Shown: piece by piece, positions 3,801 through 62,137 of the stretch
How positions within the stretch are numbered: position 1 is the stretch's first letter
Layout: every line of letters starts with the position of its first letter
NCBI GenBank assembly: GCA_009869945.1
Contig: WIXG01000007.1
Span: 62,001 to 126,000, forward strand
Source: Mesaphorura yosii
Taxonomy: Eukaryota; Arthropoda; Collembola; Poduromorpha; Tullbergiidae
Length of the DNA stretch: 64,000 nt
Direction of reading: 5' to 3'
Position numbers and translations under genes: made by a program
The notes under the pieces: model-generated
Seen by the model: the letters and a program-made list of their open reading frames with translations, nothing else
What the model was told of the DNA's origin: nothing
Databases searched by the model: none

Positions 3801-6800
3801 GTATCGTCTTTAGTCTTCAGCAGCTTCCCTCCCTCAATTACTACTACAGCATCATCATTCTTTGATCTGTCTTGTTTACTGAGATGGATCGCAGAATATA
3901 CGGGAATACTGCATCTTGCCCGTTAAAGCGAATCCTCTGAATGAGATGCCGGCCCGCTCCCTACTTCCTTGCTGTAGTCTATTGTGTTGCTAGCCTCCTT
4001 CATTTGATTGATAGTTGTTACGATTGCGATTGCGGTTCTGAGACCCGATTTTTTTTGCATGCACTCAATCGTTAAAACGAGACGCAGCGTTGATGCTCAC
4101 ATGAACACTATAAACCAAGCTTCTTCCTCCGGATTATGTTTCCCATCATCAATCCTTTCCTCTCATTCTTTCGTCCCGGTTTTCATTCTCGTTCCACTTC
4201 TTCCTCTGCGCCTCAATTACACACAATTGCGCCAGACAATGAACCAAGAACTGGCTCACTAGCTGCCAAAATCGAATTCCTTCTGGTTAGTGTATTGAGT
4301 ATTGTCTAATGTTATTATTGCCAATAATTCCACTAAATAAGCAGACTGCTGCCGAATTCTCATCGTGCCGGGGATTTATTCCCGCTCCGGCTGGGAATTA
4401 GAATTAATGAAGAAGAACTGCCAATTTGATTCCGATTCTTCGGCTCTGTATTCCTGTTGAAGGCGGAATGCCCCTTAGACCAAAGAATCTAGCAAACCCT
4501 GGACAGCCCTAAGCCTCAAATTATGATTGACGCGGAACTAGCAGAGAATTTAGTTTTTAGTCATTTTGGCTTGTGAAAGATGAAACCACACACTGGTTAC
4601 ATGGCTGCTCGTTGTTGGCTGCCTGAACGGTCTGAAGTCAACTTGGACTTGAACTCGACATCGACTTCGACTTGGTTCTCAATGCTTAATTACTTGTGGC
4701 TTAACCAGCCAACTTTATTTTGATTTTACTTAATTAGTATCAAAATCAAGCATGCTGCCACAGCCATCGGCGTTCGCCTGTCAATTCAGTCCTCTCGCTG
4801 TCAGTCTAAGCTCGGTGTTGAATTTCTGGGTCGCGGTCGCTCGCAGTCAAATCTGTCAAAATATAATATTTTGAGCCTTCATTCATTAAAGGTCGAAGAT
4901 CTAAAATTTTTGAAGGTGAAACTGGGCCAGACACAAAGTCCATTTTAATTGAAGACTGGTACTTGGTAGTTGCCACATTCCCTGATTGGAGATGGAAGGT
5001 CGGAGCGGAGCTGGAGTTCGGCTCGGCTTTGTTTATAATTAATTAATGTAATTCATACTGGGTCTTGTGAACCCGGTGTGAGGGCTTTGTACTTTACTTC
5101 TTATGATTCATTAGCTAAATTAGCCTTGCCCATGTCTGCCTGTCTCAAGTTTAAATTAAATGCGGCTTAAGAGCCTTGAGCTTGACATTTTGTATTTGCT
5201 ATACCGTTACGTTTTTTTTCGAAATTGCAATTCTAAATCGTAAGCTCTTCAGGTACGACTACTCTTATCACACCAGGACCGGGCCAGGACTGCCAGGACG
5301 CGAAGTTTGACTGTCGCACAAAGAGCCCAGCGCGTCCAACAGTAAGGCATATTTTGTGGAGGTTGCAAAAATGGAGGACATCAACTCGAAACAAAAAGTA
5401 ATTAAAAATAATTAGTATTTGTGCCCGTCTCGCCTCGTCTTACCATCCACGCCGGCTTATTGTGCACTCGACCGCGTGGACTCGAATTTTTACAGGACAA
5501 GTACGCCTGGTGCTTGACTCAATGGAGAAAGTTTTTGAGTCATTAAAATCTTAGTAGTCCGTCGTCTTCGTCCTCGTGAGTTCGTTGTACTCTGGACTAT
5601 AGAACTTTCACTCTGAGAATCACTCTGACACAATTTCCCATAAAATGTGTACAAAATACGTGGGTTTACAAAATCAGGCAGAAGTCAACCGGCAGGCAGT
5701 GAGTATTTTTGGTTCATCGTAGTCAAATATCAGCATCGTCCCATAAATTCAATGGTCCATGGTTCCTGTGGACAAATATAAACTTGAACGAACAGCTGGC
5801 TCAGCAACTCCGCACGTTGTAAAGGAACCCGACTAGCCGGAGTCGGAGACCTAAAGGCCTTTGAAACCAATTCAAGCATATGTTATTGCCATTTCCTCAT
5901 CGCTGGTAACGCAAAACGCACAGGCACAAAGTTCCGGGCTCGGATCTCGGATTTATACGAGAAATTGCTTACACAAATTGTTTTCGTCATTTCACCGATT
6001 CGGATTCAAGTTCCAAGATTTTTATGCGAGTGTGAGTGGTGGCCAATAGTGCAAGCCAATGCAAATGCATTGACAGCGAATTTTATTTGTACTGATTTTG
6101 TCTCCGTACATTCTTGTCAAATCGCTATTTCCTGTAGAGAAAACGAAACGAGATAAGACGATTCACCCTTCACTGTGCGTGCAGGCAGTCATGCGTGCTT
6201 GCTTGCACCCTGCTGAAATTCACGCGAAAGAGCCAGCCAAGCAAGCAGCCAAACTTTTCAAATTTATCAAATTCAAATTACGGAGGACATGAAAAAGGGT
6301 CGGTCGTCGCCCGCCGCGTCGTCGGAGGCCCGCAAAGTGGATGGAGAGAGAAAGTTGTTGAAAATTGAAAGAAACTTTGTTTACATTAAATTACATTGCT
6401 AAATATTATAACTCTGTACGTGTAACGAGTCTGGGCTACTGAAATAGTTGTGTTTATTTCATTACCCAGGAAAGTTGGGCCGGAGCAGCGAAAGCACATG
6501 CATAAAAGTTGGTCGGTCATTGAATTGGTTTGGTTGGCGAAATGAGCCGTTTTAGTGATACGCGGAAGGCGCAGCTGGTCAGGGGAAGTTGGTCTTATGT
6601 TTACAAATTTCGTGTGTTCGTAGACCGCAATGCAAATTATTTGACCATAATTACATCATTTCCACCGTGGCGCGCGCTGCGTGCCAGGCGGTCTTCTCTC
6701 CAAGAGGTGACCATTGCGTTGGGTCGGTCGAGCTCTTTATCATGCAGCGGTTAGCGTTTTGTATTTTGAAGACAGAGAAGGTGAATGAGTGAAAGAGCAG

Positions 6801-27479: not shown

Positions 27480-28531
27480 TGTCTATCGCAGTTTTATTTG
27501 AATATGACAGACTACAAATCAGAGAAGTGACTCATTTATTCAGAAATCAGATCTTGTGCAATTGGGAAGTCAAGAAGCCAATTGGATTTGGAGCAACGCT
27601 GAAGACAGAATTTGCAACTGCGTCGTTTCATGATCCATTTGTAGCTTGGCCACATCTCCTAAGTTTATAAGATTTGCCAATGGTTTGGTTTCATACATAA
27701 TGTGAAGAGGTCGTGACCCTCCAGGAGAAGCAACAGAATCAAAGAAGGGCGTTTATTCATCGCACGTTCAGTGGTTCAGTCTGCATCGTCAAAACACATT
27801 TTGTAAGAATCATCACTTCGTGTTCCACATTCTTCACTAGCCAAATCATGCGCAGCGCAGACTCGGTTTCCAGAACTCTTTTCAAGGAGACGTGACGATG
27901 GTCGGAGTTGTGGGCCGGTGCGCATTTCAGCACGCTTCAGAAATAATTACGGTAATCAGTTTTCAAGGCTCACGTTGCGTAAATTATAATAATAATAATC
28001 GTGCCAGCGCAGTGAAGAAGCAGAAACTATAATTAAAACTTCTAGTTTCCGGAATGCCTGAGCCAGAACTACTTCTGCCACTGCCCGTTTGGTTTGTTCT
28101 CATTAACGAACAAAAACGTAGCATAATCATGATGGAATAGACTTGGCAAGTGTGACTCTCGAATCGAGTACAGGAGCGATAAAAATTCATGCAACCTTGA
28201 CGTCGTATCAACATGCTCTTAGGGCTATACTTATGTGTTATAGCAGTGCAGGTTCACATTAGACTAGCACGTCGGATCGTATGAGGTTAAACGTAGCTAT
28301 GAAAACATTGGCAAACTTGTGATATAAACACAACATTCCAACCCACTCAAAGAGCAAAGTCAGTCAGTCACAGGGTTATCATTTAGTTTAACTTGAGACA
28401 CTCAAGAGACCATATCCTAATAATAATCATAGTCAATAGCAACAAACTGGCTGCAAAACTGACTCCAGGCTGCCCACACTTCTGCAAGTAAACAACATTC
28501 AGATGCTCTGCGGCTGCTGCTCCTGTAAATC
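27480..28531. other. intergenic, no gene seen
   Basis: About 1 kb between the poly(A) site of the upstream gene and the start codon of the DUF2236 gene. Only frames of up to 76 codons with no coding character. It presumably holds the promoter and leader of the downstream gene, whose sequence just before the ATG (CTCCTGTAAATC) contains a stop, so the start at 28532 is well bounded. Confidence 0.45.
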
Positions 28532-29910
28532 ATGTCTCCAGTACCGGAGCAAGTCGACTGGCGAGAAACCTACCGCCGCTTGATTGAAGAGGCGCCATAT
28601 ATCCCGGGTGACGAAGGTGAATCAATTGAAGCTGGCAAAATTGAATGGGCAGATCCGAAACTTATAGCCGAAGGACAAGCCTTCTGTCACAGACACTTAA
28701 TTGGTCTCAGCTTGTCTCACTCAGGAGCTCTTTTACTCGGTTTCTCAATCAAGAATCTGTCAACCGTTTTACTGCGCACAGGCGGTTTCAATGGCGTGGA
28801 GAAATCTATTCAGCGCATGTTTGACACGGAAGAACACATTATGGCATGGTATTTATCGGACATTCTACAGCAGATTGGAGCGGGCTACAAAAGCGTGCAA
28901 GTCGTACGAAAATTACACAGATTAGCACTGAAGAAATGCACCGAGGCAAATTATGCACCTGATCCGTCAATTGTACCAAATGACAAGGTGGAAGAGAAAC
29001 TAGCTTTCTTGGAAGCGCTCAGAAACGATCTGGCCTGTGTCGATACTTCTGAATCTCCAACGCATCTGCTCACGTACAATCCTGAATTGCTAATAAACCA
29101 ATTTGACATGGCTCTGACGCAGTACGGATTCTTCGCTCCAATCTACGTGTAAGTCCGACTTGATACACTTGACCGACGTCAGACAGAAAAGTTGAGGTTG
29201 CCCCATAATCCTAATCGTAATAATAATCATAGTCCGATTAAACGGTGCTTTACAGGAGCCCGAGAACATTCGGTATAAATGATCCCAAAGGACTGGAAGG
29301 ATTTGTGCATCTGTGGGCTGTCATCGGAAGGCTTCTCGGTAAGATCACTAATGCACACTTTGGCTTTCGATTATTTCCGCTTCCGCATTCAGGCAACCGT
29401 AACATTCTTGTTTTTCCCTATACAGGAGTTCGAGATCGCTATAATTTAGCCCTGCACGCTAACAAAGAGCTTTTCGTCAAAATTCACCATGAAATCGGAA
29501 TGGCAAGCCTGAAAAACGCAGATTTGGTTGTGGCCGGACTTCAGTTTGCATACGAAGAAGCCTTGGCCAGAGTGATGCCTGGCTTCTCCCTTTATGGGTT
29601 CATGTACTACGGATTCTCATCCAGAGCGGCAATTCCAGACTACGAAGGAAAGCACGTCTACAGTCTTATGACAACACGCAACAAATTATTTGCCCTTTGG
29701 CTGCAATTGATCTTCTTCCTGATGTTCCACTTTGACTTTATTCGAGAATTCCTCCATAAGAAATATAGGAACATGACGGAAAAGTTGAGGAAGAAACGAA
29801 GGAAATTAGCCAGGGCTCCACCAGCCAGAAGTCGTCAACGGGACAGGGAATTCTCCACAACGCCCGTGACCAAGCTTGTTTCCAAGTTTATTGAACGAGT
29901 GTACGGATAG
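28532..29910 (+). CDS. DUF2236 / mpaB-type (rubber oxygenase catalytic domain) protein, 3 exons, 394 aa
   Basis: Exons: 28532-29148, 29256-29338, 29426-29910; introns of 107 and 87 bp. The order of motifs fits the DUF2236 family (ER-bound oxygenase mpaB / latex-clearing-protein catalytic domain), heme-dependent in the characterised bacterial members: LLRTGGFN near residue 81, FDTEEHIMAWYLSD near 97, VVRKLHRLALKK near 124 (His129 is the candidate heme ligand), NPELLINQFDMALTQYGFF near 185, and HLWAVIGRLLG. The C terminus adds a hydrophobic span (LFALWLQLIFFLMFHF, about residues 325-345) followed by a very basic tail (KLRKKRRKLARAPPARSRQR), suggesting a tail-anchored membrane protein with a basic cytosolic end. 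Substrate unknown. Family call from memory of the motif pattern; no alignment was possible. Sporadic in animals, so horizontal origin is conceivable, but introns show it is fully established. Confidence 0.8.
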
Positions 29911-42100: not shown

Positions 42101-42826
42101 ATGAAATCAGAGCGCGAGACTTTCATTTTTGTTGCAAGCGTTCCTCGTCTTCTGAAACTGCACAGCAACTCCAGGAATGTAAACACGCCCTGAGAATTCG
42201 TGTGGTTGCAGAATTCCTTCCAGTTAGTGGCAAGGAGAATGGCGAGGTAACAGGTGGAAACTAGCCAAAGCAAATTAATGGGCCTGCAGGTCATCCAGGT
42301 AAGATTTAGAGTCTGTATCAATATTATCTTCCTACCGTTAACTGCTCTTATCAATTCTGGAGAGCAGGACGAAGCATCAAGCTAGTTAACGAATTGAAGC
42401 GTTCTTAGTGATTTAGGGTTTTAGTCTTTAATTCGATGTGGTGATGGTTTCACCTTAAAGTGAGATGGGATGTATTCTAGTTCCAATAATCTGTGATTCC
42501 GTGTAAAATTGCTCAATGTCTTGCCGTGGCAGCCTCCGTCCAATTTCGGCGTTCTGTCAGGTGCTGGAAGCAATTTTTGGACTTCCGATTCTGAAATTCC
42601 TATAAAGGTCTAGCCCAGCCACGTGTGACATAATGATATGATAAAGTTATTAAGTACGATCTATTGTTTTTGCAAATCGGCAATCCTATAAATCCTGCAG
42701 TCCTGCGCTATTGACCCATCTATTCACTCAACAATCTTTATAAAAACATTCATTTTATACGTATTTTATCAGCACAGACAGTATGCATTAGAGGAACCGC
42801 CTGATAAATCCCAGTTCTCCGCCACG
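39114..42826. other. intergenic, no supported gene
   Basis: The side nearest 39.1 kb is the promoter side of the TPR gene and the side nearest 42.8 kb that of the PHD-chromo gene. A minus-strand open frame at 42,294-41,995 begins with a signal-peptide-like stretch and is discussed under findings. No other frame has splice or domain support. Confidence 0.4.
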
Positions 42827-44634
42827 ATGTCAGAGAGAAAGTATTGCATTTGCCGGTCTACTGATGGGACAGGTTTCATGATGTAAAGCACATCTCTTGA
42901 CTACCCATATTTACCGAGAAGCTATCAATCTATTCTTCTGTTGCAATTATCGTAGTAATATATAGCAGTAGTATTTATAGCCTTGTAGTTATTCTGATGT
43001 AGAATTTTTTGCGTTTGAATGGCTTTACTTCGCACTATAGCCCATTTTGCACTGCACATCACGTTCAAAATCCTGGATCTTTGCTAACAACTTTCTTTGT
43101 AATCAGATTGTGCGAACAGTGTGACGAATGGTTCCATGGATGTTGTATTAAGATCACTGAAGAAGAATCTGAATGGATTAGCCGTTACTTTTGTGCCAAG
43201 TGCATTGCTTTACACCCGGCATTAAAAATTCGATACAAGAGAAGCGGTATGAAGAACACCAGTCGCGGGTACCAGGAGAATGACCTTGATGAAGATGGTT
43301 AGTAATCATTCATCCGATTAGAGCAAACAAGCTTCCACACACACGTGATTTGAGTTGGCTTGTTTTCAGACTCAGAACCACCATGTAAATTACGACAGTA
43401 CTACGTGAGGGATATTTTGGACAAGAAAACGTTTGAAGATGGTAAAGTCCGTTATCTTGTAAAATGGGCTGACTATGACAGGTTCGTCAGTTAAAACTTT
43501 ACATCATCATCACTATAACCTTGAAATAATGTACTACTTGAATGTCAGATGTTATGTATTAACAGTAGCCCACAATAATGCATTATCCCCTTCAACTTCT
43601 AGCGACGCCAACTCGTGGGAACCTCCTTCAAATTTGTCCACAGCCCAGTTCGTTGTAGAACGATTTGAAAGGCGCCTTAAGAGAAGGGAGAATGGGGAGA
43701 AATCAAGTAAGCGTTTATTGTGTTATAATTCTCACCAGCATTGGAAATCTTGCAGGGATAGTATTCGATTAACCTAACACACTTTGGTTTTTTAGGCAGC
43801 GAAGACAGCCATGATGACAAAGAAAACGACAATGAAGGAGGCAAAGATGGTTCATCAGGATCCTCAGATTCTGAGTCTTCATCAGGCACAGAGACAGAAC
43901 CAGAACCTTCACGAGACGACGAAGACGATAGAGAAACAGAAATTAACGAAGGCGGCTCAACGGATGGGGAGCAGGATGAAAAGGACACTCCGAACAAGAC
44001 GAACGAAAAGGGAAATGTCGAAGGCGAAGGAACTCCTTCAGGGGTAAGTTAGTTTACCAAATCGCGTTTCTTTACGTGGCTTTGCTTTGGTGAACTTAAC
44101 TAACTTGATTTTAAGTAACGTCAAACTTCTTGCGTGTATTAGGAGTTTTGTCTTCTCGAGGAACTTCCTGACGGATTCGAGCCCACGAGGATGCTTCTTG
44201 CACTTCCTTTGAGAAAGGGAGGTTTGTGCTATATGATCGAGTGCAAAAACAAAGAAGAGGAATTAGAGCCAGTCTTCATCTACGCCGACTGCTTTCGCAG
44301 ACAGTTTCCTCTCGTCGTGATTGAGTTTTACGAGCAACACATAAAATTCACTGAAGATGTTTACCCCAGTGATGATGAAAACAGTGAAGGCCAGTCAGAA
44401 GAAGAATTAGAACCAGAGCAAGCAAACGAAGAGGTTATGCAGGTACAAGAAGATGCAGTTCCTTCTCCTCCGCCTCCTCCAACTTCTACCATTCGGAGAG
44501 ATGCCAACAAACGGAAAGGTTCCACCAGCAAGATCGACTTCAGCAGTTCGTCTTCCGCTGCTGGTGCTGATTCTTCAGACGACAATGAAGTTCTTGCAAA
44601 CATTTCTACAAAGAGGAAACTCGTTTCCTCTTAA
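42827..44634 (+). CDS. PHD finger + chromodomain + chromoshadow domain protein, 6 exons, 400 aa
   Basis: Exons: 42827-42882, 43107-43297, 43370-43481, 43603-43706, 43796-44043, 44143-44634, all in phase. The PHD finger is residues 6-51 (YCICR, FMILCEQCDEWFHGCC, FCAKC): zinc ligands C7, C9, C21, C24, H29, C32, C48, C51, with Y6, M18 and W27 where H3K4me3-binding PHDs of the CXXC1/KDM7 type have their cage. The chromodomain is about residues 92-145 (QYYVRDILDKK, YLVKWADY, SWEPPSNL) and keeps the HP1 aromatic cage (Y93/Y94, W115, Y118). After an acidic Ser/Glu linker, residues 244-306 form a chromoshadow domain (LPDGFEPTRML, PLVVIEFYEQHI) followed by VYPSDDE as in HP1. Expected role: nuclear, dimeric chromatin reader. 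HP1 proteins normally lack a PHD finger, so this architecture is unusual. Domain calls are strong; ligand binding is inferred. Confidence 0.9.
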
Positions 44635-49384: not shown

Positions 49385-51105
49385 ATGAGTGCGGGAGGAG
49401 GCCCAGGACAATCAGAAGTTGCGACCACGACGACTCCAGAAGTCAGCGAACTCCGTAATGGCAAAATTGTCAAAGCAGTTATTTTGATTGGAGGCCCACA
49501 AAAAGGTAAGAGATCACCACAGGTTTGTAAGGCACTGCTCTGCGCTGTCTTGATCTAGTGAATACTTCCAGGGACTCGATTCCGTCCACTCTCTTTGGAC
49601 GTACCAAAACCCCTGTTTCCTGTTGCCGGCATACCTTTGGTTCAACATCTAATTGAGTCATGCGTTCAAGTACCAACCGTAAAGGAGATTCTGGTGCTTG
49701 GCTACTTCCCGGCACAGGACATCACACCATTTTTGGATGAAATAGGGCCTCTTTACAGCCCAGTTAGAATACGGTACTTGCAAGAATATAATCGGCTTGG
49801 CACTGCAGGTGGAATTTATCATTTTCGTGACCAAATCTGTGGTGGGAACAATTTGCTGTCATCCTTCATTTTAATCAATGGAGATGTCTGCGGAGATTTC
49901 CCCTTGGAGCAAATGCTGGAATTTCATTCAACATTAAAACAAGTAAACGGAAGTCGCAAGCCATTGATTACAATTCTTGGAACTGAAGCCACTCGACAGC
50001 AGTCAGTGAACTATGGCTGCATTGTTGAGAACAAGTCAACCCATATGGTCACACATTATGTCGAGAAGCCTGAGACTTTTGTGTCGACACTAATCAACTG
50101 TGGCGTTTATATTTGCTCGGTAGAAATATTTCCAATCATTGCGAAAATATTCAGTCAAAAACAAGAAAGTTATTACTCGTAAGCAAAGAAGCAAATATAC
50201 CTTGTGTTGCACGTAAAATTCTAACACAACCTTAAACTTTAAATGGCCTAATTCTATGCATGTTTTAGCGGTGAACTTGATGACGAAGTGAGCAACGACA
50301 GCTGGGAGGCCGTCGGGCTCGAGCAAGACATAATCATGCCTTTAGTCGGAGCCAATGGCTGTAGTCCCGTTTACGTGTACCAGACAAGTAGAATGTGGTC
50401 GCAAGTTAAAACAGCTGGGAGTGCCATTTATGCCAACAGACACTATCTAAGCTTGTATAAGAACAGAACACCAAGTCGGCTTGCCAGTTTACAGCCTCCA
50501 CATGGTAAAGATGGGAACTCTTCAGGTCCCAATCTGATTGGTGACGTGTTTATTCATCCAACCGCACAAGTCCATCCTACATGTGTCGTAAGTTTAACTG
50601 CTGATTGATTCATTGGAATACTCAGGCTGGAATTTACTGATTTTGGATTTTCCGATTTTCCAACGCAGATTGGACCGAATGTTAGTATCGGCAAAAATGT
50701 TGTGATTGGCCCTGGAGTCCGAATTCGAGAGTCAATTATTCTTGGGGATTCTATAATCCAAGACCACACCTTGCTTCGCTATTCAATTGTGGGTTGGAAC
50801 AGTTTCATTGGTAAATGGTCTCGTGTTGAGGGAACACCTTGTGATCCAAATCCGAACAAGCCTTTCGCTAAAATGGATAACGTGCCACTATTTAATGAAG
50901 AGGGAAGGTTGAATCCATCGATCACCATATTGGGTGAGTTTTGTTGCTTTTCTGTTCCAACTGCGATATCAATTGGATAAAGTTTATTACATTTTTGAAT
51001 ACAGGCTGCCATGTTCGTGTTCCATCTGAAGTTGTGGTTCTGAATTCGATTGTTTTGCCCCATAAGGAACTCAGCCGCAGCTTCACCAATGAAATAATTT
51101 TATAG
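49385..51105 (+). CDS. GMPPA: mannose-1-phosphate guanylyltransferase regulatory subunit GMPPA, 5 exons, 470 aa
   Basis: GMPPA is the catalytically weak partner of GMPPB; it senses GDP-mannose and restrains its synthesis. Exons: 49385-49505, 49572-50178, 50269-50587, 50669-50933, 51005-51105, all in phase. The nucleotidyltransferase part begins [20 protein letters not shown] (about residues 30-49) with [19 protein letters not shown] next; then [53 protein letters not shown], and a left-handed beta-helix part ([55 protein letters not shown]). It ends [18 protein letters not shown] then TNEIIL. Compared with human GMPPA it has about 29 extra N-terminal residues (Gly/Thr-rich, no internal Met to restart from), and is longer overall (470 vs about 420). 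A poly(A) signal ATTAAA lies at 51344. Confidence 0.96.
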
Positions 51106-51412: not shown

Positions 51413-53559
51413 ATGTTGTCCACGACCTTACTCTGTTTCTTAATTTACATTCGAATCCTTTCTATCTATTCCTACCTGAATTTAACCTCTTCTTACGTTT
51501 ACAATTTCGAGAAAGACATTCCAGACAACGAGAATTGCATTGATTCTGTCATCATGATTGTTTCAAACGAGCAGATTGAATTCGAGCCAATAACGCTTCG
51601 ACCTTACATGATATTTATTGAGACGTCTTATAACCTCATTGTCGAATTTCACACTACAAAATGTGTCATTTTGATTCTACCAGGATTCACCACACTCTCC
51701 GACAAGGTCTCTGATTTTTTGAATGATCGCTTAACAGATGTCAGGGTAGTCGTCATTTATCCGAAGTCGGAGATGTACGCCAATATCCGCAAGGAGAGAG
51801 GCGTGCTGGAGATGCAGGTTCACGTTGTGAACAAGACGACCGGTGCTGTGCACAAGTACGAAAACCTGAAACCGAGATGCGACGGGGATGTAAAGTGTTT
51901 CCTGAACAAAAGAGTTCTCCGGATAGGATACTCACCGGTCAGAACCCAAAATGAGTGACATATGGCTTTTGTGTGGAAATAATAATCAATAATCAAGTTT
52001 CTATTGATGCTTAGAGTGTGTACTTCGAGGTGCTTCACTGGGCTCAATACAAGACGCTAGGCAAGCCGATTCCTCCCATCATCTTGAACAGGACGAACGG
52101 GGTGGATAAATACTTCCGAGGTCTCGATGCTGAGCTGCTAAAGACGCTCGTTTTTCACTACGGAATGACACTCATCATGGTTGCGCCAGCTGACTTCTCC
52201 TTCGGTCGCAAATACGACAACGGAACATGGGACGGCAAATTCAGTCTTCTTGGAAAGAAAGAAGTGGACATGTTAATTCCAAGTATTGTGGGCACCGTCG
52301 AGAGAACTGAAATTGGAGTATACTCGTCACCAATTCGCATTTCGAGGTTTACCCTAGCTTCGAAAAAGATCAAAAAGCAAGAATGGGAATCACTGCTCCT
52401 ATCGTTCGATCTTCCAACTTGGGTTGCTATATTTGCATCAGTTGTGATTGTATGTCAATCCGTCTGGCATGTTACGAGAATTCACAATCAGATCCATGGA
52501 GCCAAACCCGTTAAACATCAAAGTGTTTTTCGAATTGCGGGAGTGGTAAACAGATTAAGAATTTAGATTACAATGAAGCAATGAGATCCATCCTATCCGG
52601 ATGTTTTCAGGTTTACACTGCTTTGGTGGGAGAATCTGGAAGGCAACCGAGCGGACCTGCGGCGTTGATTGTTGGCTCGTGGATGCTCTGCTGTTTAATC
52701 ATACAGTGTGCATATATTTCGAACTTTATGTCAAACTTAAGGTAGCCCATTTGAATTAACTTCGAGGCAGAAGTGCATTTTGACTAATTCAAATTTCTGC
52801 TTAGTACGCGAGACCCTGAAAAGAATTTGGACACACTTGAAGACATTTGGCGTGAAAAGAAGCGGATAATTGTGGTTCCTGGTAGTGTTCTGGAGCATCT
52901 ATTAAAAGAAAGTCACCAGCCGCACATGAAGGATTTATACAATTGGAGATTACCTTTGAACAAGGTGGACGATGCAGAATTCGTGAAATTGCTTGACATG
53001 GGTTTTGTCGGCGCTGCCGGGGAATGGCTGCTAAAGTAAACGTTCGTGGACATGTCCTGGGCTTTGGATAAAATCTTAGCTTCTGTTTCAGAGAAAGGAT
53101 TTATGAGGGTGCAAAATTCAACCAATACCACATTTCGCGGAAACCATTTTTGACCACATCCTCAGCATGGCTGTATCAATCGGGCGATAGATATCTGACC
53201 ATGTGCATTGACAAAGTCCTTCGTAACGCTGTAGACGGTGGACTCGTTGATAGATGGGAGCAAGATAATGTACGTTCAACGTCGGCAATAACCAGTAAAC
53301 CAGCTTCATTAATCAGCCATACCGTTGACCTTTATAGGAGAAGCAAATTGAGCAATTGAAGAAGGAATACTCTTCGGAAGAAATGCAGCATATCTCCAAA
53401 GAAGGGGCGGTGAGCTTGGCATTGTACCACCTGCAAAATGTATTTATCTTCTGGATATTAGGGCTTGCGGTTTCCGGATTAATTGGATTATTTGAAAGAG
53501 CTTCAACTACCGTGAAGAAGACAAAGGATACAATTCCCATTTATCCGTACTTGCCATAA
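51413..53559 (+). CDS. divergent ionotropic receptor (IR), 6 exons, 605 aa
   Basis: IRs are ion channels derived from glutamate receptors and used in arthropod chemosensation. Exons: 51413-51937, 52015-52545, 52611-52741, 52805-53035, 53092-53269, 53338-53559. A hydrophobic leader (LSTTLLCFLIYIRIL) is followed by a short amino-terminal region, then the ligand-binding S1 half from RVLRIGYSP (about residue 167) through FRGLDAELLKTLVFHYGM, KKEVDMLIPSIVGTVERTEIG and YSSPIRISRFTLASKK. Membrane span 1 is about 308-326 (LPTWVAIFASVVIVCQSVW). Pore-lining segment near 367-395 (GPAALIVGSWMLCCLIIQ then CAYISNFMSNL) replaces the SYTANLAAF motif of true glutamate receptors. S2 follows, and the last span is ALYHLQNVFIFWILGLAVSG. 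The divergent pore motif and short N terminus indicate a tuning-type IR rather than a co-receptor. The ATG at 51413 has an AAA context; upstream in-frame sequence lacks ATG. Confidence 0.88.
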
Positions 53560-54446: not shown

Positions 54447-56297
54447 ATGGGAGCCGCATGCAGAAAAAGGGCAAAGTTTGATGCTCCAATAAGATCTCCT
54501 GACATTGAGAAATCGGGCCCAGTTCAAGATTATGACCTGATCATAGTCGGTGGCGGCAGCGCAGGGATTGCTGCGGCCCGTGAAGTGGGGCAGTTCAAGT
54601 TGAAGGTGCTTGTCTGTGACTACGTCGCGCCTACGCCGTTTGGCACTACTTGGTAAGATAACAAACTTTAGCAAGATCCAAGAGTAAGAAAATGGATGAG
54701 ACATGACTCTTTTCGACAGGGGCCTTGGCGGTACTTGCATCAATGTCGGCTGCATCCCAAAGAAGCTCATGCACTTTGCTGCTCTTACCGGACAAACAAT
54801 TCACAACTCAGAAAGTTACGGCTTCTCAGTCCTTCATTGCCCGTCAGACAGCAACATTACAAAAACAGTCGTCAATGCAAAATTTGACTGGACCAAGCTC
54901 GTGGAAGAAATTCAAGAGCATGTGCATTCTCAGAATTGGAAGAGCAAAGTCACGCTTCGGGAAAATAAAATCGAGTACCTGAACAGGCCGGTGGAGTTTT
55001 TGGACTCGTTTACGTTGCAAGTTGCGGGTGGCGAAGCAAATAAGAGCGATAAACAGTTTATTCGAGGGAAGACCATCCTTATTGCTGCTGGTGGCCGACC
55101 AAAGTAAGAATCGATCGAACTCACCGAATGATCATTTGAACAAGGCTTTACGCGTTTTCAATTGCAGGTATCTCGAAATACCTGGCGGGCGTAAAGAAGA
55201 CAAGCTCTGCATCACTTCAGACGATATTTTCTCAATGGCAAAGTACCCTGGAAGAATTCTGATAATCGGAGCAGGATACATTGCATTAGAGTGCGCTGGG
55301 TTCCTGCACGGCCTTGGAATGTCAGTGACTCTACTCGTGCGAGACAAGGTTCTTCGTCACTTTGACCAGGAAATGGTTGACAAAATCATTGACCACATGA
55401 CAGGAGCTGGGATTATTTTCCTCATGCACTATGAACCAACTGAAATCAAGCGAGTCGATCTGAATACCATTGAAGTGGTGGCAAAAAGCAGAGAAAGTGG
55501 GGCTCAGCAGGAGTATTGCGAAAAATTCAATACAGTGCTTCTGGCCATCGGGCGAGATCCGTGCACACATGAATTGAAGGTCTCCAATGCTGGTGTGAAG
55601 GTTGACGAGAAGAGTCAGCGCATAATTGTGAATCCGACGGATCAGACCAATATTAAACATGTAATGAATTAATTTCTGACCCCTTGAAGGATGCCGCTGC
55701 AGCTTAATTTTTTCGTACACTCAGATTTATGCACTCGGTGATATCGCTAATGGCCACATGGAGTTGACTCCAATCGCAACGGTAAGAGAAAACGCTGACA
55801 TTTTTAGTTGCCTTCTTAATGTCGGTTGTTCTGGTTAGCATTCAGCGAAGCATCTAATACGCCGACTCTACGGAGGCTCTAAGCAGCTTACGAGCTACGA
55901 AAATGTCCCAACCACAATCTTCACTCCAATCGAATATGGCTGCATTGGGCTGTCGGAGGAAGACGCGGTTGCTCATTATGGCAAGGACAACATAAACGTG
56001 TACCCGAAATCCTTCCTTCCACTTCAGCACGTGCTGCCACATCAAGACTCTGAAACCTGCTATGCAAAACTGGTTTGTGTGAAAAGTTTGAAGGAACGCG
56101 TGGTTGGACTGCACTATTTTGGCCCCGACGCCGGAGAAGTTGTTCAAGGCTACCAGATTGGATTTCGACTAAGAGCCAAGAAGTCCGACTTTGACTCCCT
56201 GATTGGCGTTCATCCAACGTGCGCCGAACTGTTCACCGTCATGAAGTTTAACAAGGCATCTGGGCGCACGGATGAATCGGAGCAATGCTGATCATAG
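54447..56297 (+). CDS. TrxR: thioredoxin reductase, probable selenoprotein (Cys-Sec-Ser end), 5 exons, 532 aa
   Basis: Reduces thioredoxin with NADPH. Exons: 54447-54652, 54720-55103, 55168-55660, 55725-55781, 55839-56297. FAD site [19 protein letters not shown] near residue 30; redox centre [19 protein letters not shown] near 69 (CINVGC disulfide); NADPH site [31 protein letters not shown] motif [19 protein letters not shown]; catalytic base [10 protein letters not shown]. The frame runs GAG CAA TGC TGA TCA TAG (56280-56297). The TGA at 56289 falls immediately after Cys and one codon before a normal stop, where animal selenoprotein TrxRs have Gly-Cys-Sec-Gly, so I read it as selenocysteine, giving a Gln-Cys-Sec-Ser end. 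A conventional reading would stop at 56291 and lack the C-terminal redox pair. I did not find a SECIS element by eye. No mitochondrial presequence is evident; probably cytosolic. Confidence 0.9.
56289..56291 (+). other. probable selenocysteine (UGA) recoding site
   Basis: In-frame TGA as penultimate sense codon of TrxR, preceded by TGC and followed by TCA TAG. The position matches the known Sec site of animal TrxRs exactly. Confidence 0.8.
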
Positions 56298-57422: not shown

Positions 57423-58694
57423 ATGGGACTTGTGCAAAATCGTTTATCTTTCGGGTGGTTCTTTCTTCTGGGGATGGGTTTTTGCACCGGTTACATAAAT
57501 CGTAAGTAAACCTCTTTTGCCATCTTTGTAAATAGTTGATGTATACGTGCTCTGCCCACAGTGGCTGACATTGAGTGTGGACAGCAATCAGTGAAAGCCA
57601 ACCCGAAAATAAGAGCAGCTCGGATTGCAGGAGGGCGAGAAGGTTAGTAGCGTTCTTCCAATGCTTTTCAGATAAGTGCACATGTTCAGCTCGAAAATGG
57701 AATCAAGGTCGTTCCAAAAGTTGTTCAAGTTCGAATCATTTAGTGCTGAAGGCTGACTGTATAAATTATTTCGCCACCTCATCAACGTGCACATGTTGGA
57801 TCGAAACACAGCACACCTGTGTTAATTAAGATTCTACTTTGCTCATTTCAGCGTTCCACGGTGAATTTCCATGGATCGTGTCACTACAGTTCAATTCCGG
57901 CGACACTTCACATTTCTGCGGTGGTTTCTTGGTCAATCGTTCAACCGTCATTTCTGCAGCGCACTGTTTTAGTTTAACGTAAGCCACCTCTCCGAAACGC
58001 AGTACTTTAATCGTTCATACGTTTTCGTATAAACAGAGGAGTGTCAACAAAGAGAGTCAACGTGGTGATTGGAGAGCATGTAGTCGATGAAGCGGAACAG
58101 CCGATTGATACCAAAATCTACGAAATAGCCAGTGTCAATGTGCATCCAGAGTACACCCTGTCAGAGGCGACGAGGCATGACATTGCGCTGGTACATTTGA
58201 AGAAGCATGTCGAATGGAGCTCGTACGTTCAACCGGCCTGTCTTTCTAACGAGGAAGACGATCTCGAAGATGGAAAAATGTCACAAGTTGCTGGTTGGGG
58301 CCAGACTGGAAGTATGAATTAATCCTCTCAAAAATAGCGAGCTTCGATAATCTGCCAGTATTCCAACTAATCTTTCGTTTTAATTGAAGAATTCTCGGCT
58401 CCAGCAGCCACCTTAATGACGGTTGAAGTCACCATACTCAGTCATGCCAAGTGTGAAAACGAGTACGACTGGATTCCGTCAAAGAGCCAATTTTGCGCTG
58501 GGCACACATCGCGAGACAAAGGAGCTTGCAAGGGCGACAGCGGCAGCCCGTTAATGATGAAAGACTCTAGTCAAGATGCATTGAATGTGGTTGGAATCCA
58601 TACAGGAGGTCATGGTTGTGGACTGAATATGCTACCTGGCGTGTACACAAAAATATCCTCTTACATTACGTGGATACAGACAAATATAGCATAA
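57423..58694 (+). CDS. secreted S1-family serine protease, 5 exons, 288 aa
   Basis: Exons: 57423-57501, 57562-57642, 57852-57978, 58037-58311, 58390-58694. A signal peptide (WFFLLGMGFCTGYIN) leads into a short propeptide (DIECGQQSV) and the activation site AAR|IAGGRE. The catalytic triad is complete: His in SAAHCF, Asp in RHDIALVHL, Ser in CKGDSGSP. The propeptide Cys can pair with Cys in VQPACLS, tethering the propeptide as in chymotrypsin-like enzymes. The S1 pocket residue, six before the catalytic Ser, is Gly (GACKGDSGS), not the Asp of trypsin, so cleavage after Lys/Arg is not expected. The oxyanion region reads GDSGSP instead of the usual GDSGGP, and the 214-216 segment is IHTGGHGC rather than the common SWG, so specificity is atypical. 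No clip or other extra domain. Probably digestive or haemolymph. Confidence 0.92.
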
Positions 58695-59142: not shown

Positions 59143-62137
59143 TTACTTGACAAGTACGACTCTGTCATCTTGTGACCCACGCCGTGTCATCGCCAGCACA
59201 AGCCCCAGGAACATGAGTCCACCACCAAATCCAACGAACCCAAACCTGACCATATTCCATCCTTGTTGAATCCAGTTCATGATTTTTAGGAAACTCAAGT
59301 TCACTTCGTATGGCTCAATTGTCTGAAATAAATAAATACACATTGTGGAAAAAGGCAAAGGTGAAGATAAGCATATGGTATTCCGAAGGTGCTGAGATAC
59401 CTCCTCAATCCAATAAATGGGAACCATTGCCTTTGCTGGTTTTCCAACTGCCTTCACATTTTCGTATGGACCCACTTCTATCCCGTATTGCAGGCGTTTT
59501 GAAGCTTTGAAAATGTATCCAGATATCTTCCAAGGAAATACAAGTCGGAAAGTCAGAACTTGGCTTGAAATTCTTGTTTAGCATTAGCGTACCGAGCTTA
59601 AATCGTAGAATGTAGAATGCTCCTCTTCTTTCGGTGACAGGCCTTCCACACTGTTCAGCACGGCCTCGTCAGCGCCCAAGAAATGCGGTTGAGACAAAAA
59701 CAGCGGTGTGCCTGAAAAAGAACAGTATTGAGCGAAATTGGCCGATTTCTGCACACAGTCGACAATTTACCGGAATTGCAAGCTGCCAGAGACGTATATC
59801 CATTCTTGTGACATTTCTCTTCGCTTTCCTCATTGCAGAAGCACCAATTCTCCTCATTCTTGTGTGGTCCATCAAATACTCCCTCGGCAAGCTTAAAACG
59901 ATATGCCTCCAGACCATCAACCTTCATCGTCTCAGTGTAAACCAACTTCAATGACCGGCACATTTCACTGGTGAAGATGTACAGTGGAATCGACACATTC
60001 AGGAACGGTCGAAAGATTGTACCGTCAGTGCCATTGATTTGGTTACAGGATTCGTCCTTCCAGAATGGCAGCTCGGGATTTTCATTCCATTGAACGATTT
60101 CACCAAATTCCGATGTCCTGTTTCGTCCGCTTTTAACTTCAAACATTCCATGATCAGATCCATTTCTCTGAAATAAGTGATATTTCGGTTATGCATGTCC
60201 TTTAACGGAAATGAATGGAATGGAAGTTTTCCTCACATTTTTGAAGAATCCAAACTTCCCGTCCGCAAACGACTCTGGTATCTTGACTGTTTGAGACTCT
60301 TCAAATATGGGATCTTTGAAAAGCACGGCTAAAGGTTCAACAGAGTATCCGTCAAACAAAAGCTCCCGAACAGAATGAGTGACAGTCAAACTTTCTTCTG
60401 CTTTGTCAAGGAATCCATTCCATTTATCTTTCAATGTGCTGTTCCCCTCAGAAGTATTTTGAGCAATGCTGGCGACGCCCTTTACAGAAAATTGTGGTAC
60501 AAATCATGCATCTTGACACCTCATAGCAAAATTGAGAATGAGACATGATACAAGTCGTCAACTTACCAGGAGGGGCACATTTATGACAGTGACCATGTCA
60601 GCCTCAGTCCCTTTGGACATTTCCGGCTGGAAATAGTATTCCTTTAGCTGCTTGTAGAGCAAGTGTCCGGTCGTTATGTTGAGCTCTATGTCAGTTTTCG
60701 CAAATTTTTCCCTGCGCATTAAAATTTGGCGATTCATCATCAGCCAACTCTCAATTCTATACAACAGGACTGCATGAGATTAAAGATTGCTGCCACTTAC
60801 AAGTATACATAAGGCCCCACTTCCGCCACGACTGGTTTCGCGCCCTTGGCCAGCTCATTCGCATTCGTAATGTTAAAGAGATGAATACTGAGGTAAACCG
60901 GATTCGGATAGTCCTTCCAGAAGGTGTATTGATCGGTGTGATTTATTATTCGGACTTGCTACGGATGGAAAATATGCAAATACAAAAAGCAATTTAACTG
61001 CGAAATGGTTGGTGAATATAATAGCTGGGCATTGCCTTGTGCAGGCGTCTTGAGAAATGTTCGACCCAACGTCACAGTCAGTCGCAGAAATGACCTTCAA
61101 TTTTTGCCATTAAATCGCACCACGTAAATTGCAAAGTAAAGGAAATCGAACTCCAAAGTGCTGTAAAACGGTTTGCGGTATAATTTCCGCACAGGCAGAG
61201 CCCATTTCGGCTAAAATATTTAAGAAGTCCATACTGGCAAAAGGCAAAAGCTGTCCACTTAAAACTGATACCATACCATACAAGAAATGAACGCCACGAG
61301 TTCATCAATTATTCAATGTGCAATAACTTTGGGCTTTGGGCGACTGTTTTTCGCTAAGCTCCGCCTTTTCCTTGTTTTGGTGAAATCATTTTTATCATAT
61401 ATTCAAATACTTGTGAAAGGAGTTTGCATGGGCAGAAAAGTCAATAATTTTGGAAAATATGGCTAAATTATTTAGACACGTACGTAAGCCATCACCAAGT
61501 TTTGGATTTGCCTGTTATGCTTGATTGAAAATGAGACAGTTTCTGTTCCATTTTCCATACTAAACAATGGAAAGTGATGATTGAATACTCCAGAATTTAT
61601 CTCATCTTTCTTGATCCTAGCCCAATTAAGATCCCAATAATTTCCTTCTGGCTAGCTTGGAAGCTAGTGAGTGGATTCTTAGACAGACAAGTTAGCCAAC
61701 CTCACACCGCATCGAGAAAGTGAGATGGCGATTATACTCATTTCTACGAACAGAGAAGCCAAAACGGCAGGTCTTGGCTCGCCCTTGGTGGGCGGCTTGT
61801 CCCAAGTGGCAGATCCTACCTTTTAATGTTCTTAAACTTTAAAAATTCCGACGGCCTTTCAAATCATAAAATTGCTTCCTTGCCACCGTCACTTCCAAAT
61901 GATCAACTGCTGACATTTTCTCACCGAAAATCGCTGATTCGTTATCGTACCTTAATTCGTTTCTTCAGAATTCCCTCCTGCAAGGGAGCTCCAAAGGAGT
62001 CGAAACGATAGCCGAAGCTCTCTTACCTTTTTGACCTGCCCCTTAATCATTGTCGTGATGCCTCCCCATCCCATGGCCACTGTCAGTCCCAGGACCACGC
62101 ACCCAGTGATAAATATGCTCTTTGGAAACCTATCCAT
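59143..62137 (-). CDS. CD36 / class B scavenger receptor family protein, 8 exons, 492 aa
   Basis: CD36-family proteins bind lipoproteins, fatty acids or microbial lipids through a large extracellular loop held by two membrane spans. Exons in transcription order: 62137-62027, 60958-60801, 60711-60567, 60479-60237, 60167-59771, 59711-59593, 59526-59401, 59322-59143. N-terminal span about residues 7-29 (IFITGCVVLGLTVAMGWGG). Family motifs: FWKDYPNPVYLSIHLFNITN, AEVGPYVYLEKF, VRELLFDGYS, GMFEVKSGRN, WKDESCNQINGTDGTIFRPF, ENWCFC, SLAACNSGTPLFLSQPHFL, LSPKEEEHSTFYDL, RLQYGIEVGPYENV. C-terminal span MVRFGFVGFGGGLMFLGLVL, short tail DDRVVLVK. The ectodomain has the usual Cys cluster and several N-glycosylation sequons. 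The first intron (about 1.07 kb) is larger than the rest. Exon 3 is started at the AG before GGAAAAATTT because the alternative upstream acceptor adds residues absent from the family. Whether it is an SR-B or SNMP member is undecided. Confidence 0.93.

Follow-up and report, generated by a model that had tools for sequence, protein, structure and literature searches.

A gene in the window, by which we mean the whole 64,000-nucleotide stretch of the Mesaphorura yosii genome analysed here, is predicted to encode a single HP1-like protein that combines a PHD finger, a chromodomain and a chromoshadow domain (CSD), and our analysis of the sequence confirmed this architecture. On balance, we consider it probable that the product is a diverged HP1 with a CXXC1-derived PHD finger, acting as a dimeric HP1-type scaffold that would read a repressive methyl-lysine together with H3K4me2/3. 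With a CFP1-type PHD finger naturally joined to HP1, such a protein would offer a compact test of the joint reading of opposing H3 marks, and of the routes by which an HP1 might reach promoters or boundaries.

Gene structure and domain content

The gene occupies positions 42827-44634 of the plus strand, and its six coding exons amount to 1203 nt, specifying 400 aa and a stop codon (Table 1). All five introns are bounded by GT and AG, with lengths of 224, 72, 121, 89 and 99 bp and phases of 2, 1, 2, 1 and 0. The first-pass annotation, made from the letters alone, had described short introns and in-phase junctions, and these introns of 72-224 bp with matching phases bear it out; the window contains zero Ns. 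In the same frame, 45 codons free of stops precede the ATG at 42827. Because this stretch takes in an acceptor-like site at 42773, to which a small candidate exon further upstream would join in phase, an N-terminus 25 aa longer, or an intron in the 5′ UTR, is possible.

Table 1. Positions of the gene's features and of neighbouring frames in the window
Feature	Position	Strand	Content or basis
Possible upstream exon (ATG...CAG gtaaga)	42278..42298	+	phase 0 to 42773; conjectural
Possible 5′ extension of exon 1 (acceptor ...tttatcag CAC)	42773..42826	+	in frame with ATG 42827; conjectural
Coding exon 1	42827..42882	+	start of PHD finger (Y6, C7, C9, M18)
Coding exon 2	43107..43297	+	remainder of PHD finger (W27, other zinc ligands) and CXXC1-like stretch HPALKIRYKR
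Coding exon 3	43370..43481	+	first half of chromodomain (Y93, W115, Y118)
Coding exon 4	43603..43706	+	second half of chromodomain; preceding phase-2 intron common to four other HP1-like genes
Coding exon 5	43796..44043	+	hinge, acidic, Ser-rich
Coding exon 6	44143..44634	+	chromoshadow domain (about residues 241-314), tail, stop
Possible poly(A) signal AATAAA	45248..45253	+	
Nucleotidyl transferase	49562-50182		Pfam
Ligand-gated channel glutamate-binding domain (below cut-off)	52015-52566		Pfam
Pyridine nucleotide-disulphide oxidoreductase	54983-55672		Pfam
Trypsin	58011-58322		Pfam
CD36 family	59655-60188		Pfam

Pfam analysis identified a PHD finger at residues 7-51 (37.1 bits, cut-off 24), a Chromo domain at residues 94-144 (46.4 bits, cut-off 25.1) and a Chromo_shadow domain at residues 265-306 (22.1 bits, E 1.6e-4), with the CSD alone falling 0.3 under its cut-off of 22.4; a search of NCBIfam returned no match. 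The PHD finger is encoded by exons 1-2, the chromodomain by exons 3-4 and the CSD by exon 6. Zinc ligands are present in the finger at C7, C9, C21, C24, H29, C32, C48 and C51, and all three of its annotated cage residues, Y6, M18 and W27, were read from the translated protein as stated.

A CXXC1-like PHD finger and the case for a fusion

The finger had been annotated as CXXC1/KDM7-type, of which only the CXXC1/CFP1 part was upheld. Its best match in the PDB is CXXC1 (9c0o, E 4e-15, residues 3-60), followed by PHF2 (2e-11) and PHF8 (2.6e-11). When the animal's own genome was searched with the N-terminal part of the protein, the CXXC1 gene at contig C299 scored 77 bits (45% over query residues 4-79) and the next PHD 31.5 bits. 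A KDM7-type finger was ruled out on the strength of both comparisons. Ungapped identity to the genome's CXXC1 is 54% over 59 residues, a similarity that extends beyond the finger and includes the motif HPALKIRYKR. Nei-Gojobori comparison of the two PHD coding sequences gave a saturated pS of 0.88 over 32.7 sites and a pN of 0.27 over 144.3 sites, a pattern consistent with purifying selection on the pair, in which the share of each gene is not separable.

Both CXXC1/CFP1 and the yeast COMPASS subunit Spp1 resemble the window protein in possessing a PHD finger with a Y-M-W cage and in the stretch that follows it. The window protein differs from CXXC1/CFP1 in being joined to HP1 and in the absence, by Pfam, of the CpG_bind_C region found in the genome's CXXC1. 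The PHDs of CFP1 and Spp1 are reported to interact in vitro with H3K4-methylated peptides (PMC5828529), and by analogy the PHD finger described here would bind methylated H3K4. The genome's CXXC1 itself (L034, G000:C299:50500-54500, positions 919-2733) encodes 605 residues in one exon, with a PHD finger and CpG_bind_C (272.2 bits); even at E values as high as 10, Pfam matched no CXXC zinc finger in its open frame.

Chance or forced splicing was ruled out by the Pfam scores, the intron phases and an intron common to paralogues. A different concern is that two adjacent genes were wrongly joined at the 72-bp intron 2, with exons 1-2 encoding a short PHD protein and exons 3-6 belonging to an HP1-like gene. 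Reading through intron 2 meets in-frame stops at once, such that its retention would end the frame right after the PHD finger, and two related HP1-like genes, at contigs C301 and C502, begin at a Met of their own ahead of the chromodomain; both observations would suit separate genes. However, the intron is GT/AG with matching phase, and exon 3 has no in-frame Met ahead of its chromodomain. Since the two parts are joined at an intron and exon 3 lacks such a Met, fusion is more likely than an erroneous join of two genes, and we regard mis-joining as highly improbable. The simplest history for the fused protein would be duplication of a CXXC1/CFP1 gene, whose PHD exons came to sit upstream of a diverged HP1 paralogue, where splicing linked them to the exon that opens its chromodomain.

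HP1-like genes and the HP1 core

The assembly searched (93.0 Mb in 1127 contigs, with the window on contig 7) has 66 matches to the cuticle chitin-binding family Chitin_bind_4, as expected of an arthropod, and gave no match for COX1. An arginine kinase fragment from it scored higher with 4bg4, 4bhl, 5zhq and 4am1, of decapod crustaceans, than with 6ky2 of Daphnia or 1m15 of Limulus, a weak hint of crustacean affinity; the double-domain kinases 4wo8 and 4rf6 rank higher still, since the scores of two stretches are added up for them. The assembly contains at least nine HP1-like genes, designated here by contig as C5, C647, C1090, C8, C292, C107, C301, C502 and the window gene. C301 exceeds both the Chromo and the Chromo_shadow cut-off, and C502 the Chromo cut-off only, so the CSD of C502 rests on a weak alignment with that of the window protein (tblastn E 0.035; 28% identity). 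In 5/9 genes (window, C301, C502, C8 and C107) the codon five positions ahead of the tryptophan in N[ST]WEP is interrupted by a phase-2 intron; the remaining four read continuously at that codon, without an intron. The next introns of C301 have phases 1 and 0 like those of the window gene, with one more inside the CSD, and C502 has only the phase-0 intron, before the CSD, among these two. In an unrooted tree built on the chromodomain and CSD together, the window gene, C502 and C301 separated from the other six (support 91), and the order within the three was left unresolved (support 65). C502 (L030, G000:C502:22500-31500, positions 4198-5608) encodes a diverged HP1-like protein with an Ala/Gly/Gln-rich hinge and a CSD unrecognised by Pfam.

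The three-residue aromatic cage of the chromodomain is complete. W115 and Y118 are as annotated, and alignment with the genome's HP1s resolved the ambiguous first position, given as Y93/94, to Y93. In the chromodomain, the window protein is 36-51% identical to its eight HP1-like counterparts in the genome, with C502 closest (51%) and C8 at 38%, and for the CSD the corresponding range is 24-34%, with C301 closest (34%). Two motifs that had been singled out in the CSD were located, VVIEFYE at 295-301 and YPSDD at 311-315. CSD residues I297, Y300 and I304 align with CBX1 I161, Y164 and L168, which lie in the dimer interface. F306 aligns with W170 of CBX1, which is presumably needed for PxVxL binding, and phenylalanine also occupies this position in C8, C107 and C1090.

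Further evidence for the CSD came from profile comparison. A profile of the CSDs of the window protein, C301 and C502 yielded 21 PDB matches up to E 10, headed by the CSDs of CBX1, CBX5 and CBX3 (E from 3.4e-5). Every one of the 16 matches with E < 0.01 belongs to the HP1 type, 15 under the names Chromobox or Modifier 1 and the other as Heterochromatin protein 1; the five weaker ones comprise a fission-yeast-type Chromo domain-containing protein 2 and four unrelated proteins. With hhalign, the same profile matched four canonical CSDs of the genome at 96% probability. Modelled by AlphaFold2 from its sequence alone, the CSD came out with three strands and a pLDDT of 53.4, a quality too low to confirm the fold.

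The hinge of an ordinary HP1 is typically basic and binds nucleic acid, although this is not a strict criterion. Here the hinge is strongly acidic, with 32 D/E and 10 K/R in 94 residues, and its net charge of -22 argues against the nucleic-acid binding usual for HP1 hinges. The tail after the CSD is long and carries a net negative charge. Overall, the protein is like HP1 (CBX1/3/5) in its caged chromodomain, the presence of a hinge, the CSD dimer positions and the chromodomain intron of the genome's HP1-like genes, but differs in the N-terminal PHD finger, the acidic hinge, the diverged CSD and the negative tail.

A second gene of this kind was not seen in the genome, where 36 PHD matches fell on 26 contigs and, among the nine HP1-like contigs, only on C7, that of the window. 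Using two PHD queries in tblastn against 10 loci (the eight other HP1-like genes, C98 and CXXC1), we recovered CXXC1, all else having E >= 0.25. Stretches of 1.4 to 4.2 kb were covered upstream of the eight other chromodomains; no convincing PHD appeared in the 3.8 and 4.2 kb ahead of C301 and C502 (best E 0.97), and a loose PHD motif scan, which a PHD split by an intron would escape, returned nothing. The genome searches work on single exons: the window's own chromodomain is not among the 19 Chromo matches, nor are the CSDs of the window gene, C301 and C502 among the 7 CSD matches (6 loci), so that other domains in the genome that are split or have diverged may escape too. An HP1-like protein with an N-terminal PHD finger and intact cages, as first proposed, was thereby retained for the window, with no PHD seen in these exon-by-exon searches beside the other eight.

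PHD fingers and chromodomains also meet in one protein in Mi-2/CHD4-type remodellers, which have an SNF2 motor and no CSD. No SNF2 ATPase was matched by Pfam in the window protein up to E 10, and the genome's own Mi-2/CHD4-type candidate is at C49. HP1 paralogues multiply and specialise, generally through alteration or loss of the domains they already have and not through gain of a histone reader. This tendency is consistent with the portion of a Daphnia magna study that describes three canonical HP1s and one chromodomain-only protein and there mentions no PHD (PMC12286036), and with a candidate chromatin domain table for five model organisms in which, in the part concerned, Chromo is the only partner of Chromo_shadow (PMC2993927). 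Both sources also agree, within those parts, with the statement in the first-pass annotation that known HP1s comprise a chromodomain and a CSD only. Comparable pairings are described as separate proteins: Drosophila Phf7 and HP1D3csd, of which HP1D3csd acts downstream (PMC7973481), and KDM2A, which binds HP1 via an HP1-interaction motif (PMC5388433). KDM2A with HP1 likewise brings a CXXC/PHD module together with HP1 on chromatin, there as two proteins and here in one polypeptide. We found no description of PHD, chromodomain and CSD in one protein in the single open-access library searched, which does not prove absence, and a scan of IMG/VR gave no relative.

Histone marks that the protein may read

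In the mechanism that we favour, the chromodomain would bind a repressive methyl-lysine, most likely H3K9me, and the PHD finger H3K4me2/3, while dimerisation via the CSD would gather partner proteins in the HP1 manner. K4 and K9 of H3 are five residues apart and each reader domain covers several residues, so that a single H3 tail could probably not accommodate the two domains simultaneously, and dual reading would need separate tails or separate nucleosomes. PHD finger and chromodomain are connected by about 40 residues, a linker that would permit either arrangement. The two tails bound might belong to the same nucleosome or to adjacent ones, and the HP1-type scaffold could thereby be brought to promoters bearing both marks or to the borders of active chromatin. 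Judged from its sequence features, the reading of H3K4me3 and H3K9me together by one protein is plausible. A bolder version, in which the CSD dimer of an HP1 with a built-in H3K4me3 reader presents two active-mark and two repressive-mark readers and senses or sets a chromatin border, is tentative and somewhat doubtful.

Against the favoured explanation stand the CSD alone just under its Pfam cut-off, the poor AlphaFold2 model of the CSD, F306 in place of W170, the residues Q92 and S132, and the acidic hinge. Some of these points would also suit a specialised HP1, truly fused, that has kept mark reading in one domain only, such as an HP1 of the germline or of transposon silencing with a structural PHD finger, or an H3K4me3-guided scaffold with a weak chromodomain. 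Strong divergence of the chromodomain and CSD from the eight other HP1-like proteins, the Q92/S132 changes and the acidic hinge favour such a protein, but both aromatic cages are complete and the comparison of the PHD finger with CXXC1 fits constraint, which leads us to regard a single remaining reader as rather unlikely.

Q92 and S132 also bear on which mark the chromodomain reads. They occupy the positions of an E and a D in HP1 that presumably favour H3K9 over H3K27. With these K9-favouring residues replaced, H3K27me3 reading is possible, and the protein might then read bivalent H3K4me3/H3K27me3 chromatin in the manner of plant EBS/SHL. Those dual readers similarly link an H3K4me reader to a reader of a repressive mark, with a BAH domain there and an HP1 core here, and EBS/SHL chains are among the PDB matches of the PHD finger. 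Nonetheless, the protein has a CSD, and both the chromodomain and the intron within it are of the HP1 type. Moreover, the second specificity site is non-acidic in 3/6 of the more canonical HP1s of this genome (C5, C1090 and C107), and the first is also Q in C107. We consider a bivalent H3K4me3/H3K27me3 reader improbable, and H3K9me remains the likelier partner of H3K4me2/3.

Elsewhere in the window, two long open frames at 28529-29910, without a Pfam match at E 0.01, may resemble mpaB-like oxygenases.
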